From contig CALEVZ010000005.1 in assembly GCA_937924755.1 (NCBI GenBank), positions 86,609 to 141,396 of the forward strand: a stretch of DNA of 54,788 nt, given 5' to 3'. Shown here one piece after another: positions 1 through 10,202 of this stretch. Under the pieces are notes generated by a model. It was given only the letters and a program-made list of their open reading frames with translations. It had not been told where the DNA came from and did not search any database. Source of the stretch: an uncultured bacterium (lineage in GTDB: Bacteria > Acidobacteriota > Thermoanaerobaculia > Thermoanaerobaculales > Thermoanaerobaculaceae). Every line of letters begins with the position of its first letter. Within the stretch, counting starts at the first letter, position 1. A program made the position numbers and the translations under genes.

Positions 1-3000
1 GTCGTCGCGGGAGTCGTAGGCCAGGCCCGCCCCCAGGTAGGGCAGAGTGAGGGTGATGTCCAGAGGGAAGAAGTCGGTGCGCTCGAACAGATGGGTCCGT
101 TGCCAGCGGCCGTAGGTGCGCGCCAGCCAGTGCTTGCCCAGTGGCCGGGAGAGCTGGAAGGTGAAGCGGGTGGAGTCCTCGACCAGTTCGGGCAGAAACT
201 CCTCGCCCGGGGTGATGCGCCGCCGCAGTTCCAGGTAGGTTTCCGAGAGGACTCCGGTGCCCAGGAGGTCGGGGGCGCTGAGGTAGAGGCGGCCAGCGCG
301 GGTGGTGGAGTCGAACAGACCGCGGGCGCCGAAGGTGAGGGCTCGCCCCAACAGATTGCGGTCCAGGTAGTCCACCACCCCCGCGGCTCCCCGCGAGGAC
401 TCCCACCGCACCCCGTAGGCGAGGGAGATGGGCGGGCGCTCCTCCAGCCGGTAGCGCACGGTGGCCGCGCCGGTCGGGTCTCGCACCACCTCGTCGGTGA
501 CGCCGGCGAACAGCCCGGTGCCCAGCAGGCGACGGCGACCCTCGCGCACCACGTCCAGGCGCAGGGGCTCACCCACCCTCACCCCGGCCAGCCGAAGGGC
601 AATGGCCGGCGAGGTGCGCCGTGAGTCGGCCAGCTCCACCGCCGCCACAGAAAAGGCGGACCCCGGCGAGATCTCGAAAGTGACCGTCATCGCCAGGGGG
701 TCGACGGGATCCGGGGTGAGCTCGGGCCGCACCTGCACGTCGGGATGGCCACGGGCCCGGTACCACTCGGCGATGCGCACCGCTCCCGCTGCCGCCTCAT
801 CGCGGCGCGCCGGACCACCCGCCGTCAACCCGACAAGCGTCTCCAGGTGAGCAAGATCCTCCTGGCGCGCACCGACGACCTGCACCTTGACGAGGTGCTG
901 GCGGGGGCCGGGATCCACGGTGACGGTGAGTCGTTCCCCATTTTCGTCCAGGGTTCGGCCGAGCACCCGGCCCGCCGGGTAGCCCAGCGTCGCCAAGGTG
1001 GCGAGGAGGCGCCGGTCCGCCTCCGGCAGCCCGGCGGCCAGTTCCATCAGCTCCACGGTACCGGCAAAGGCGGCGAGGAGGTGAGGCTCTACGTCGTCTT
1101 CCACCCCGGCCACGTGAGTCTGCTTTAGGGAGTCCAGGCGCCGTCCCGGGGTACTGGCGATGGTGACGGTGCGCGGGTGTTGGGGCGTGGCCGGCGCTGC
1201 GGTGACGGTGACCTGGGGCTCCACGTAGGCCAGACTGCGCCACACACGCACCGCCGCCAGGCGCATCTCTTCGAGAGACTGGGCTTCCCAGACGCCGGCG
1301 CGGTAGAGCGAGGTGATGAGGGGGCGGGCGCCGGCGGGGGGCAGCTCACCGGCGAACGCAATGGATACCGGGGCCCCGGGGTCAATGATCACGTGCAGGT
1401 CGACGCGCGCCCGACGGCCGATCACCGGCCGCGCCTCCACCTGGACGTCGGCGTCGGGGTAGCCCAGCTGGCGCAGCTGGTACTCCAGTTCCAGCTCGAG
1501 ATCCAGCTCCACCCCCTCGGGCAAAAGGTCGCCGCGGGCCAGGCCCATCGTCCGGCGCAGGCGGCCGCGCGGCAGCTCGGGCGGTGTCTCCAGGACGAGG
1601 CGGCGCAGGGCGGGGCGGGGGGTCTCCTGGCGCCGACGGGTGCCGCCCAGCTCCAGGGCCTGCTGCAGGGTGGCGCCGCTGTTGCCCTCGTCGTTGGTGA
1701 AGATCTGGGCGGTGAGGGTGGGCAGGCGAGGGAGGTTGTGCAGGTCGAGCAGATAGGTTTGCCGCTCGGCATTGCGCAGATCCAGCGACACGGCAAAGGC
1801 CACGGTGGGGCTCACGTCCCGGGCCACGGTGAGGCGGGCCGAGGGGTCGGCTTCTCCGAATACGAGCACGGGCTCCAAGGAGATGCGCGCCGCCCCTCCC
1901 AGCGATTCGGACAAGGAGGAGGCGATGGTGCCTCCCACGGCTCCGGCCGCCGCGGTGGCCAGGGCCGCCTCCAGCCCGGCCCCCGTCGGGCCGGCGTCGG
2001 CCTCCAGCAGAGCCAGCGCTCCGGCGCTGCCCCGTCCGATGCTGGGATCGTCCAGGGAGGAGGTGACGGATACCTCCAACTGAGGGTCGGTGAGCGGATT
2101 TCCGGTGAACGTGGCGATCGCCCGGTCCAGGCGCAGGGTCTGGCCCAGGGCGCGCACCAGTCCGCCGGGGTCGACGCTCACCACCCCCTCCAGATGGGGG
2201 GCCCAGGCGGTGCCGCGGATGAACAGGTCGTCCCAGCGCAGGCGCAGGTCGGCCAGGTTGTTGCGCACCCGTACGCCGTCCTCGGTGCGCACGGCGATGT
2301 CCAGATCGATGAGGTCCAGCTCGCCCCCAGCGGTGCCGGCGGTGGTGGAGGGGGCGAGGAGGAAGGGCAGCAGCTCGTGGCGCAGGGACAGGGGGCGGTC
2401 CAGGCGGCCGCGGGACACCGTCATCGTGCCGTGGATGCGGCTGCGCCCCTCGGGGGGGAGCTCGGCCACCAGCTGGCCGTCCAGCTGCACCAGCACCCCG
2501 AAATCCAGGCGGAAGCGGGTGCCGGCAAGCTCCACCTGGGCTTCGCTGCGGCCGTCGGCCGACCTGGATCCGACCACCCCCAGCCGGCCGCCGTTGAGGG
2601 TGCCACTGGCAGAAAAGAGGGCGTCGCCGGTGGCGGTGATGCCAGCGTCAGCCTTGAGCCCATCCAGCCGGGCGGCGTAGGGGGTAGGCCAGAAGAAGCT
2701 GGCGGCGGAGGCGTCCAGGGTAAGCCCCGCGCGGGGAGAGGCGGGAGTCCCGGAGAGCTGGGCGTCCAGGTGCACCGGCCCACTGGCCGCCGCCCCGGCC
2801 AGGTACGGCTGCATGAGGGCCGCCTCCAAGGTGCCCTGCGCCCGGCCGGCGAGGCTTTGCACCGCGGCGATGGGCGGATCCTCGGCTGGGCGCCAGCCGG
2901 GCGCCAGGGTCGCCTCGCCCACCACCTCCAGGGTGGTGCCGGCGGCGGTGAGGGCCACCGGGGCCAGAGTGGCGCGATGGCCGTCCAGCGCCAGCCGCAC

Positions 3001-5154
3001 CTCCTCGGCCCTCGCCAGCGCCCCCTGGCGACCGTCCACCTGAAGTCGCGAGAAGATCACTTCCCCCGTGGCGGAGGTGGGGTTGGCGGGATCGAGCACC
3101 GCCGCGGCGGTGATGCCGGCGGTCAGTCGCTCGGGCCGGTCCAGATCAGGAAGGAGGGAAGCCAGGGCGCAGCTGTCCAGGGAGGGGAGGGCGAACTGGA
3201 GAACCACGGGGCCGTCCTGCTGGTGGACGGGTAGCCGATCCAGGGCCTCGCCCAGCAGGGGCCGCAGGGCGCCCAGGGGCACGCTGGCCGCCAGCCACGC
3301 CGGGCCGGTCACCGTGTCGGCGCGGGGCACCGCCACTTCGAGAACTCCGTTCTCGAGGTGCACTTGCACCTGGGCCTCGTCGACGCCCGGGGCCGGCCTT
3401 CGAAGTTCAAGATCAGACATGACGTGGGTGATGGGCGGGGAAAGCGAGGCGGTGAGGGTGCCGGCGGCGAACCGCTCGCCCAGCAGGGCGGCCAGGCGAT
3501 CCAGGCGCAGCTCCCGCCCGTCACTCTCGCCCGCGAGGTGCAGGTAGTCCACCACCGGCTCGCCGGCACCCAGCGCCGCCGCGTCCAGGGTGAAGCGGGC
3601 GAGGAAATCCCCGGGAGTGCCGCTCACGTGAAGCCGGGCCGACACCGTGCCGGTGACGCCCTCGGCGAGCGGCTCGAGCCGCAGGGCGTCAGCCTGGATC
3701 TCCACCTCGCCGGTGAGGGCAGCGGGGCGGCCCTGCCCGCTCACCTCCACCAGCTGCCCCGGGCCGGGGTGCCAGGTCGCCCTCGCCCGCACCTCGGGGT
3801 CGACGGCGGCGCCGTCCAGGCGGGCGGAGAGCTGCAGGCCCCCCCGCAGGGGCACCTGGGGGGGCGGGGCAGGCACCAGGCCGGGCCAGCGGCGGCGCAG
3901 CTCGGCCACCGCTTGCGCCACCTCGGGTTCTTCCACCTCGAGGGTGAGGCCGTCCAGGTGCGCCTCCACGGGAGCGGACAAGTCGGCCAGGGCCACGCGC
4001 CCGTGCAGCCGCCGCCGCCCCGGCAAGGCGGGCAGCAGAGTCGCGTCCACCATGATGGCCGCCGTGCCCTCCGCCACGCTCCCCTGCGCCTGCACCGTCA
4101 GCAGGCCCTCCTCGCCTCGCCGCCAGAGCGCGGTGGCCTCGCCTTCCCCCCGGGGCGCTGCCCCCTCGGGGAGGGCGAAGGACGCCGTGAGGGTAAGATC
4201 GACCTGGGTCCCTGAAAGTGCGAGGTCCCCGCCAAGGTCGGGTGGCAGAAAGGGGCGTGCCGCCGCCGGGGACACCCCGGTGGCCCGCAGTCGCAAGGTG
4301 CCGCGGGGCGCAGGGACAAAGAGCTCACCCTCGATCTCCAGCTCCCCCCCCAATTCCAGCTCGGGGGCGAGGGCAGCGGGGGTGGCGAGGAGCTGGAATC
4401 GGGCCTGGTGCTGCCCGCCGGGGGCGAGGTTCCCGTCGCCGGTGAGGGTGACCTCGAGGCCCGGCCCCCGGAGAGACCCCTGTTCCACTCGCCAGGGCCC
4501 CCCCGGTGTGACCTCGGCCCGGGCGGTGAGGGCAAAGCGCTGCTCCCCGACCCCTGGCCGGTCCAGCAGGAGCTGGTCCAGGTGGAGCGCGAGCCGGGCC
4601 GTGCCGTCCCGGAAGGAGCCCTCCACTGCGATATCCTCCGCCCGCCAGGAGCGCAGCTGGGCGCGCAGTGCCTTCGGGACCTCACCGCCCGAGATGGCGG
4701 CATCGACAACCACCAGTCGTTCCACTACCAGGGGGGGGAACCCGGCGGGCGGGCTGTCTCGGGGGGGCGTGGGCAGGGTCGGTAGCGGTGCCGACAGGTC
4801 CAGCTTTAGGCCCTCGAGGGAGAGCAGGCGGATCACCGGCGTGCCCCGCCACAAGGAGGCCAGCTCCACTGTCACTTGCGCCCGCTGGATGGTCAGCGCG
4901 GGCGCCGCCCCGGGCATTCCTGCCCGCACCCCGATGAGCGCCAAGTCCCGTGCCAGGGGACGCACGACGACGTCCTCGGCTCGTACCTCCAGACCGGTGC
5001 GCTGCTGAAGCGTCGCGGCTACCCGGGCCAGCACCGCCCGTCGCACGCCGGCACTGCGCCAGGCGAGGAGGGCCCCCAGCACCCCCACCCCCACCAGGAG
5101 GAGGAGCACCGCCGGGAGGAGCAGCGCCCGGCGCCAGCGTCGCCGACGAGCCAC
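1..5154 (-). CDS. TamB-Omp85 fusion: AsmA/TamB-type translocation module joined to POTRA repeats and an outer-membrane barrel (3' end outside window)
   Basis: One uninterrupted frame runs from a GTG at 5154 to the window edge, at least 1,718 codons. I chose 5154 over the GTG at 5160 because an AAGG lies six bases upstream. Residues about 6-28 are a hydrophobic anchor. About 30-800 is long, repetitive, beta-rich AsmA/TamB-like sequence. About 800-1150 resembles the conserved TamB (DUF490) C-terminal domain. From about 1175 to 1560 come some five POTRA-like repeats. From about 1570 Omp85 barrel strands begin, and the last visible residues include [11 protein letters not shown], the Omp85 'DTRD' motif. 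In Proteobacteria TamB (inner membrane, periplasm-spanning) and TamA (POTRA plus barrel) are separate proteins inserting outer-membrane proteins or moving lipids; here both halves are in one chain. The remaining barrel strands lie beyond the window. The domain order is read directly; the function is inferred. Confidence 0.85.
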
Positions 5155-5209
5155 GACCACCCTTGTATGGTAACGGTTCCCTCTCGCTCCCCGCAGTGGG
5201 TGGATCCTG

Positions 5210-5218: not shown

Positions 5219-5286
5219 CTGCGACAGGTTCTCGATCACGACAGGGAGCGGCCGCCCCCAGTGCCGGTCGCCCAGGAGGAAGAGAA

Positions 5287-5850
5287 ATGGTGGGATTTGA
5301 GGCGTTGTGGCTGCCGGTGCTGCTCTCAGCGGTGGCGGTGTTTATCCTGAGCTCCATCATCCACATGGCAACGCCCTGGCACAAGGGGGATTACCGGCGA
5401 CTGCCGGAGGAGGACAAGGTGCTGGATGCGCTGCGGCCTTTCCGCATCCCGCCGGGGGACTACATGGCGCCGCGGGCTTCCAGCATGGCCGAGCGGACAT
5501 CGCCGGCCTTCGAGGAAAAACTCAAGCGGGGGCCGGTGCTGATGATGACCGTCATGCCCTCGGGCGCCTCGGGAATGGGCGCCAGTCTGGCCCTGTGGTT
5601 CCTCTTTTCGCTCATCGTCGGGGTGTTCGCCGCCTACGTGGCGGGGCGGGCGCTGCCGCCCGGGGCAAGCTACCTGCAGGTGTTTCGCTTCGTCGGGGTG
5701 ACGGCGTTCCTGGGGTACTCCCTGGCGCTGTGGGAGATGTCCATCTGGTACAAGCGCTCCTGGGTGACCTCCCTGAAGAGCACCATCGATGGGTTGATCT
5801 ACGCCCTTTTCACCGCCGGCGTGTTCGGCTGGCTGTGGCCGCGGGGGTAA
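5287..5850 (+). CDS. Small integral membrane protein of unknown function
   Basis: The product is 187 residues. The ATG at 5287 follows AGGAGGAAG, a good ribosome binding site. A hydrophobic segment lies at residues 6-25, followed by a cytoplasm-like stretch containing ATPWHKGDY and a charged region up to about residue 78. Three further membrane segments lie at about 90-115, 128-150 and 165-185, so four in total. I do not recognise a named family; the MATPWH(K)xDY motif and overall layout are seen in uncharacterised membrane proteins of Acidobacteria-like genomes. It is divergent from the TamB fusion gene and stands alone, so context gives no functional hint. Confidence 0.75.
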
Positions 5851-8582: not shown

Positions 8583-10202
8583 ATGGCCATGTCAAAGGCC
8601 AGTGTCGGTGAGGCTCTGATGGTGGGCTTGCGGGGGGCGCCCGCCTTGGAGCGGCTGCGGATTGCAAGCGAGCGGGTGTTGGTGGGCCGCGATCCGGGGT
8701 GCGCCTTGGTTATTGCTGATCCGACTGTTTCGAGGAGACACGCCTATCTGTGGGTGGAGGATGGCCAGCTGGTGGTGGAGGACGCCGGCTCCTCGGGCGG
8801 GACGTACGTCAATGGGGTGCGCGTCGAGCGCCAGGTGGTGCTGCCCGGCGACTCCCTGCGCTTTGGCGTGCGCGCCGCCTACTCGGTGGAAATCGACGGT
8901 GCGTCCAGCGCCCTGGGCCGCGCCGCCCTGGCCGCCGGCGCGGACACCTTCCGCCACCTCAACATGCTGTTGGACGTGGCGCGCACCCTCAACTCCACGA
9001 CGGTCCTGTCGGAGGTGCTGGAGGTGGTGCTGCAGGCGGCGGTCCGCCTGGTGGCCGCCGATCAGGGGTGCGTGGTGCTCCGCGACGAGCAGGGGCAGCG
9101 GCGCATCGCCGCCGTGCACCCGGCCCACCAGTCGGAAACCAGCTGGGGTGAGGAGAGCACGCTCCTGGATCGCGCCATGGCCGAGCGTCGGACCATCACC
9201 GCGGAGGCGGGGACCAACCCCGACATGTCGGCGATTGTCCGGGGGTTTACCTCGGCGGTAGCGACCCCTTTGCTGGTGGCCCGGCGTCACCTGGGGACCG
9301 GCGGCCGGGACTCCTCCTTCGCCGCCAGAGTGGAGGTGCTGGGGGGGATCCTGCTGGAGCGCCGCGGGGTGGCCACCAGCTTTCGCAGCGAGGAGCTGGC
9401 CGTCTTCGAGTCCCTCGCTGCCGATGCGGCGGTGGCCATCGACAGCGCCCGCCTGTACCGGGAATCCCGCGCCAAGGCGCGCATCGAGCACGAAATGGAG
9501 CTGGCCCGCACCATCCAGCGGGCGCTGCTGCAGCAGCCTCCGGGGACGGCCTTCTGTGATGTATGCGCCCTCTCCGCCGCGGCGCGCACGGTGGGGGGTG
9601 ACCTCTACCACGGCTTCCTCCGGCACGACGGCACCCTCGCTGTGGCGGTGGGCGATGTGGCGGGCAAGGGCGTGGCGGCGGCGCTGATCATGGCCATGGC
9701 CCAGGGACTGCTGGCCATGCTGCACGACCTGGGGGTGCCGTTGAACGAGCTGGCGCACGCCCTCAACCGCAACCTGGCGCGATTCAACCCCGGCAACCGC
9801 TTCCTCACCCTGGCGATGGCGCTGATTGCCGCGGACGGCCGGGCGGAGGTGCTCAACGCCGGCCATTGCCCGGCGGCTGTGCTGCGCCGCGGCGGCCACG
9901 TGGAGCTGGTTCCCCCCGGCGGCGCCATTCTGGGCATCTTGGACGGGCTCGAGTGGGAGACGTCGGTGCTGCGTCTGGGCAAGGGCGACGCCCTGGTGTT
10001 GTACTCCGACGGGATCGTGGAGTCGTTTGCCCCGGACGGGTCGATGTTCGGCGAGGAGGGGGTGCGCAAGGCTCTGCAGGCCCGCGCCGGCCTGGCGCCG
10101 CCGGCCATCGCCGAAGGGCTGATGATCGCCGCCTCCAACCATCGGCATGGCGGAGATCCGGACGACGATGTGACGATTCTGGTCGCTTCCTACCGCGGTT
10201 AG
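8583..10202 (+). CDS. FHA-GAF-PP2C (SpoIIE/RsbU-type) protein serine phosphatase
   Basis: The product is 539 residues (537 from the ATG at 8589). Residues about 25-105 are an FHA domain (VGRDPGC, SRRHAYLW, GSSGGTYVNG), which binds phosphothreonine. About 118-295 is a GAF sensor domain. About 310-538 is a PP2C/SpoIIE phosphatase with GDLYHGF, GDVAGKGVAAALIMA, NAGHCP, YSDGIVES and DDDVTIL, including the acidic residues that bind metal. Such proteins usually dephosphorylate anti-anti-sigma (STAS) factors in partner-switching pathways. No STAS or RsbW-like kinase gene lies nearby, so the partner is elsewhere. It overlaps the convergent metallophosphoesterase gene by four bases. Confidence 0.9.
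   Translation: MAMSKASVGEALMVGLRGAPALERLRIASERVLVGRDPGCALVIADPTVSRRHAYLWVEDGQLVVEDAGSSGGTYVNGVRVERQVVLPGDSLRFGVRAAYSVEIDGASSALGRAALAAGADTFRHLNMLLDVARTLNSTTVLSEVLEVVLQAAVRLVAADQGCVVLRDEQGQRRIAAVHPAHQSETSWGEESTLLDRAMAERRTITAEAGTNPDMSAIVRGFTSAVATPLLVARRHLGTGGRDSSFAARVEVLGGILLERRGVATSFRSEELAVFESLAADAAVAIDSARLYRESRAKARIEHEMELARTIQRALLQQPPGTAFCDVCALSAAARTVGGDLYHGFLRHDGTLAVAVGDVAGKGVAAALIMAMAQGLLAMLHDLGVPLNELAHALNRNLARFNPGNRFLTLAMALIAADGRAEVLNAGHCPAAVLRRGGHVELVPPGGAILGILDGLEWETSVLRLGKGDALVLYSDGIVESFAPDGSMFGEEGVRKALQARAGLAPPAIAEGLMIAASNHRHGGDPDDDVTILVASYRG

Follow-up and report, generated by a model that had tools for sequence, protein, structure and literature searches.

As read from its nucleotide sequence, a single gene of an uncultured acidobacterium is shown to encode TamB followed directly by an Omp85 protein with five POTRA domains, with no second signal peptide between the two. 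The product is probably a single-chain translocation and assembly module (TAM). The gene lies at the left edge of the 54,788-nucleotide stretch of DNA analyzed here (the window; G000:C5:86609-141396), which comes from a 3.35-Mb draft genome.

TamB and Omp85 domains in one open reading frame

On the minus strand, positions 1-5160 of the window form one open frame of 1,720 codons, corresponding to residues 1-1720 of the protein. When the contig was extended to the left, the frame ran ∼570 bases further (L003:8040-8609, down to G000:C5:86039), and the remaining codons and the stop were found there. The gene is therefore whole on the contig, with 1,909 stop-free codons, a complete Omp85 barrel at its end, and the C-terminus ...KLYVGFGSVF, in which GFGSVF is of the Omp85 type. 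Translation probably starts at the GTG at 5160 (GTG GTC GTG) rather than at 5154. An earlier note on this DNA had placed an anchor, a TamB body and C-terminal domain, POTRAs and the beginning of an Omp85 barrel in one polypeptide, and all of these parts were recovered by Pfam and in AlphaFold models. The POTRA-like repeats, which the note put at about five, number exactly five in the predicted secondary structure, and the DSRDD motif that it singled out is a piece of a DxRDDxxDPxRG block conserved in the homologue alignment.

All domains described below are encoded on the minus strand, with window positions in parentheses. The inner-membrane signal anchor at residues 14-35 (5056-5121) is a predicted helix, a hydrophobic run aligned in all homologues. 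Residues 4-123 (4792-5151) resemble the AsmA/DUF748/YhdP N-terminal domain, with a Pfam score of 38 bits that is under the curated cut-off of 50; the DUF748 and YhdP matches at the N-terminus were both below their Pfam cut-offs. The long beta body, approximately residues 56-1040 (2041-4995), was assigned as the TamB beta-taco from the AlphaFold model and its structural match to TamB. Within it, the Pfam TamB domain (PF04357) matched residues 895-1038 (2047-2478) at 32.9 bits against a cut-off of 22.4, a weak and partial match that covers profile positions 52-211 of 381. Predicted strands and the alignment place the TamB C-terminal strands, the counterpart of the TamB pseudosubstrate strands, at residues 1109-1171 (1648-1836).

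The junction follows immediately, with GG at residues 1172-1173 and then a charged linker to residue 1183 (1612-1647). From AlphaFold secondary structure, the five POTRAs were assigned to residues 1184-1260 (1381-1611), 1265-1337 (1150-1368), 1347-1416 (913-1122), 1422-1498 (667-897), and 1504-1574 (439-651); Pfam matched the first of these at residues 1200-1262, and its POTRA score in the whole protein was 44 bits against a cut-off of 21. The 16-stranded Omp85 barrel, identified by Pfam, AlphaFold and structure matching, begins at residue 1578 and occupies positions 1-429 up to residue 1720, continuing to residue 1905 beyond the window. In the whole protein, Omp85 (PF01103) scored 122.9 bits against a cut-off of 24 over residues 1602-1909, covering the full profile (1-325 of 325), and the barrel carries the invariant RG of the Omp85 VRG(F/Y) motif. 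The C-terminal part thus has strong POTRA and Omp85 matches, both in Pfam and by structure comparison, as the earlier note had anticipated.

These properties place the C-terminal half in the Omp85 superfamily, given its full-length barrel profile, 16 strands and POTRAs. Its five POTRAs and 16-stranded barrel are those of BamA, and it aligned to BamA residues 24-808, but the fusion scored 156.7 bits with the BamA equivalog TIGR03303, below the required 297.15. With the TamA equivalog NF047950 it scored 73.7 bits, below the required 625, and it has five POTRAs rather than three. The N-terminal half has the PF04357 match above cut-off, the anchor and the beta body of a TamB. A TamB is expected to stop at its C-terminal OMP-like strand; here the strand is present and is followed by the linker and POTRA 1. 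Likewise, TamA and TamB are expected as separate partners, and here they share a single open frame.

Structure models and the junction

Two AlphaFold models together cover the protein, one of residues 857-1909 (pLDDT 83, 37 sequences) and one of residues 1-1193 (pLDDT 79, 12 sequences). They contain the anchor helix, a long run of beta-strands, the TamB C-terminal strands, five POTRAs and 16 barrel strands; the relative placement of domains was not trusted (pTM 0.67 and 0.47). The model of residues 857-1909 aligned with BamA across POTRA 1-5 and the barrel (Z up to 27), and with TamA at a TM of 0.74. For the model of residues 1-1193, the best structural matches were TamB in two TamAB cryo-EM states (Z 14.8 and 14.7, from residue 745 onward), the Z 14.8 match covering residues 745-1114 of the fusion in VIA-align. 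Weaker matches were to the bridge-like lipid transfer protein LPD-3 (Z 9.0), apolipoprotein B and LptD.

In the junction linkers examined, no signal peptide precedes the Omp85 half, and therefore the barrel is predicted to be exported in one chain with TamB. Between the last TamB strand and POTRA 1, fused members have 3-24 hydrophilic residues. The GG at 1172-1173 is invariant in a 12-sequence alignment and is not kept in all divergent members. In split Acidobacteriota TamBs the final residue is mostly aromatic (RRRY, RRRF), and in most fused proteins the strand end continues as (F/W/L)GG. Since split partners carry a stop and a signal peptide, fusion required the loss of both. A pair in the Desulfobacterota (L206:2691-9908, plus strand) has TamB and Omp85 in the same frame; TamB ends ...YRVEFR, followed by TAG, and the signal peptide begins a few codons on. 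An arrangement like that of this pair may have preceded fusion.

The fused gene is conserved across the Acidobacteriota

Ten full-length homologues, counting the window member, could be aligned throughout, anchor to final barrel strand, with identities of 23-43%. In 38 translated loci the gene is a single stop-free frame of 1,926-2,779 codons, with the domains in the order TamB_C, POTRA, barrel. Among the matches listed, ∼76 of 396 sampled Acidobacteriota genomes, from ∼29 families, had a stop-free match spanning the TamB part to the barrel. Only matches that themselves crossed the junction, or direct translations, were counted as fusions. Reported frame lengths were not relied on alone, because a 2406-aa frame in a Desulfobacterota genome (G1264), taken up as a candidate fusion, was rejected as two genes separated by TAG, the L206 pair described above. 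Three genomes (G227, G203, and G407) carry two different fused TamB-Omp85 genes each.

In a one-contig, 99%-complete genome (G097), the fused protein (L167) scored 131.5 bits for TamB (profile 9-381 of 381), 131.4 for POTRA and 148.8 for Omp85, all far above Pfam cut-offs, and passed the NCBIfam BamA cut-off (340.9 against 297.15). Around the junction, where the earlier note had suggested looking for a frameshift or lost stop, none was found; the frame is intact in the 38 translated loci, and dN/dS over the junction was 0.09 and 0.35 in two pairs, indicating purifying selection. The whole frame is kept in many independent genomes, which excludes chance. The comparison of fused and split forms proposed in the earlier note showed that both occur in related genomes and that the fusion is a phylum-wide family. 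The idea that it is a one-off of the source genome was accordingly rejected.

Split pairs, other Omp85 genes and neighbors

The source genome has five Omp85-type matches, which are the fusion, a TamA-like protein (P0003), BamA on contig C51 and two weaker ones. P0003 belongs to a split pair on contig C1, where its gene overlaps that of TamB (P0002), and the separate BamA (L005) scored 479.9 bits, over the cut-off. In all 32 fused genomes examined there are other Omp85 genes. The fusion is the only Pfam TamB match in eight of these 32 genomes, one of them a single contig; because Pfam misses some divergent TamBs, a lone fused TamB is not proof that another is absent. Many of the fused genomes carry a split pair as well, and so the fused gene may serve a specialized purpose.

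Within the flanks examined, a gene for a TPR protein (predicted periplasmic, with a signal peptide, 200-280 aa and a conserved C-terminus) was near the fusion in 13 of 38 fused loci, compared to 0 of 17 split loci. In the source genome it lies left of the window, convergent to the fusion (L003:6093-6869, approximately -2516 to -1740 in window coordinates, plus strand). Orthologues with the same C-terminal motif occur close to even very divergent fused genes, and the TPR protein is a candidate partner of the fusion. Inside the window, a small multi-pass membrane protein without a Pfam match is encoded divergently by the start of the fusion (5275-5850, plus strand). Further on, a gene at 8583-10202 (plus strand) has, by eye, FHA, GAF and SpoIIE-type phosphatase regions of signal transduction.

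Origin of the fused genes

In the split Acidobacteriota loci examined TamB comes first, an order reversed in the Gemmatimonadota, Latescibacterota and Krumholzibacteriota pairs, where Omp85 leads; only the TamB-first order allows fusion by simple joining. Among the matches listed, no one-frame TamB-to-barrel match was seen in ∼1,180 genomes outside the Acidobacteriota, comprising 14 reached by locus, 200 Gemmatimonadota, 398 Pseudomonadota, 247 Desulfobacterota, 80 Latescibacterota and relatives, and 241 Verrucomicrobiota, with strict thresholds in the large searches (E 1e-95 to 1e-105). In one split pair (L172:7933-17338) the TamB frame ends in unrelated sequence ∼1.7 kb before the Omp85 gene, and this TamB gene is possibly frameshifted or decaying.

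In a tree of the barrels, the fused proteins form part of an acidobacterial cluster that is separate from the split clade holding the source genome's TamA-like gene. Two fused proteins of one family (L170 and L190) group with split relatives with a support of 99.9, and their TamB part still ends in RRRF, exactly where the split relatives terminate. A single clade of all fused genes was rejected by the AU test (p 9e-5). At least two fusions, or one fusion and later splits, are needed. The genes at L190:4279-11133 (minus strand) and L192:4829-11659 (plus strand) represent a second, apparently independent fusion in another Acidobacteriota family, and one of the genomes with this second fusion (G048) also has a split pair (L193).

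Comparison with known systems

E. coli TamAB (PMC12800296) shares with the fusion the inner-membrane helix, beta-taco, C-terminal strands, POTRAs and Omp85 barrel, and the models match 9xdd_B (TamB) and 8us1 (TamA). It differs in having two chains, three TamA POTRAs and a free TamB end, whereas the fusion is one chain with five POTRAs and its TamB end runs into POTRA 1. The earlier note had described TamB and the barrel protein of the TAM as separate proteins meeting at POTRA 1. They are indeed separate, but in the TamAB structures the contact extends over all three TamA POTRAs and barrel strand 1 (PMC12800296). TamB also works with a five-POTRA BamA-like protein in Borrelia (BamA-TamB; PMC13382580) and with another Omp85 protein in Bacteroidota (TamL-TamB; PMC12045153); unlike the fusion, these are all separate proteins, although the Flavobacterium TamB2 and TamL2 genes overlap (PMC12045153). 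The words 'fusion' and 'fused' are absent from the main texts of both reports (PMC13382580, PMC12045153).

Other Omp85 proteins have additional N-terminal domains before the barrel (patatin, metallophosphatase-type PF00149, WD40-like) in the accessible part of the architecture survey of Heinz and Lithgow (2014; PMC4104836), and in that part TamB is named once, as the TamA partner, and no TamB-Omp85 chain was found. The text of the TAM survey of Heinz et al. (2015) contains neither 'fusion' nor 'fused', and for the Acidobacteria it records BamA-TamB operons. The elongated MlaD of Veillonella parvula (PMC10665443) likewise joins an inner-membrane anchor and an outer-membrane barrel in one polypeptide for lipid traffic, but it is an MCE protein with a 10-stranded barrel, unrelated to TamB and Omp85, and opposes TamB in lipid trafficking. 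A single-chain two-membrane protein thus has a precedent in MlaD, and the TamB-Omp85 variant, with its function predicted from homology, is new to the literature searched; no TamB-Omp85 fusion was found in that open-access literature. Such chains may already be present, unremarked, in sequence databases.

Discussion

In chloroplasts, the TamB homologue TIC236 is bound to the Omp85 protein TOC75 across two membranes, as two proteins, for protein import. The function of the TAM itself is debated between OMP assembly and lipid transport. TamAB has been linked to both (PMC12800296, PMC11341756), and a lipid-handling groove together with an outer-membrane insertase (PMC12800296, PMC11014939, PMC11341756) underlies our reading of the fusion as a single-chain TAM. 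The chain would be tied to both the inner and outer membranes. By analogy with the TAM, its greasy groove would let phospholipids pass to the outer membrane, and its barrel end would help insert some outer-membrane proteins or lipids. The covalent link would ensure a 1:1 complex and tether the TamB C-terminal strands to the first POTRA; the fixed stoichiometry and the bridge between membranes are predicted to hold only if the chain stays uncut after synthesis.

Three other explanations were weighed. An assembly error, lost stop or frameshift comes to mind because the source genome is a draft, and the Desulfobacterota pair, one frame with a single TAG between, makes lost stops easy to imagine. 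However, dozens of independent genomes share the fusion down to 23% identity, and the junction is under purifying selection between halves with no signal peptide separating them. On the homologue alignment, translated loci, 396-genome sample and dN/dS, this explanation was rejected as exceedingly improbable. The chain could instead be a polyprotein, made in one piece for a 1:1 ratio and co-export and then cut in the linker to give ordinary TamB and Omp85 halves. A short, charged linker starting with GG could be a protease site, and co-export is the only route for a downstream half that lacks a signal peptide, but beyond the GG, itself lost in some divergent members, there is no conserved protease motif, and the linker varies from 3 to 24 residues, so that we consider cleavage quite unlikely.

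It is also unlikely, if less so, that the fusion is a specialized paralogue, a port for the secretion or assembly of certain surface proteins or lipids, acting with the TPR neighbor while the split pair does the general work of the TAM. The presence of both forms in the source genome, in different clades, is consistent with such a division, as is the distribution of the TPR gene, near 13 of 38 fused loci and 0 of 17 split ones. Yet the fused gene is the sole TamB match in eight genomes, and the TPR neighbor is mostly convergent, not part of an operon, and absent in 25 loci.

If the fusion is a single-chain TAM, its geometry matters. The final TamB strand of E. coli TamAB is able to pair with strand 1 of the barrel, with the strands ahead of it folded into the lumen of the barrel (PMC12800296). 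POTRA 1 is furthest from the barrel along the chain and the tether is short, which makes a hybrid barrel in cis a sharp question. With a linker of only ∼10 residues, the last TamB strand could pair with barrel strand 1 of its own chain only if the POTRA arm curled back; otherwise it would pair with another barrel. A fuller scenario seems plausible to us, though short of probable. It holds that the chain is a covalent inner-to-outer conduit for lipids or OMPs that arose at least twice in the Acidobacteriota when a TamB-Omp85 gene pair fused, and that it is the only TamB in some lineages; as its TamB C-terminal strands would be hard to bring to its own barrel gate, it may cycle differently from TamAB or hand the strands to another barrel, possibly with the TPR neighbor.

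The fusion bears on whether TamB and Omp85 form a lasting 1:1 complex or make a passing contact, and on whether TAM cargo is lipids, proteins or both. It provides a ready-made single-chain construct for tests of structure, stoichiometry and transport, and raises the question of how BAM inserts a barrel when the other end of the chain is already anchored in the inner membrane. In some bacteria a single chain seems to span both membranes, and the retention of a natural fusion by many families argues strongly that a lasting 1:1 association can work and is selected for.
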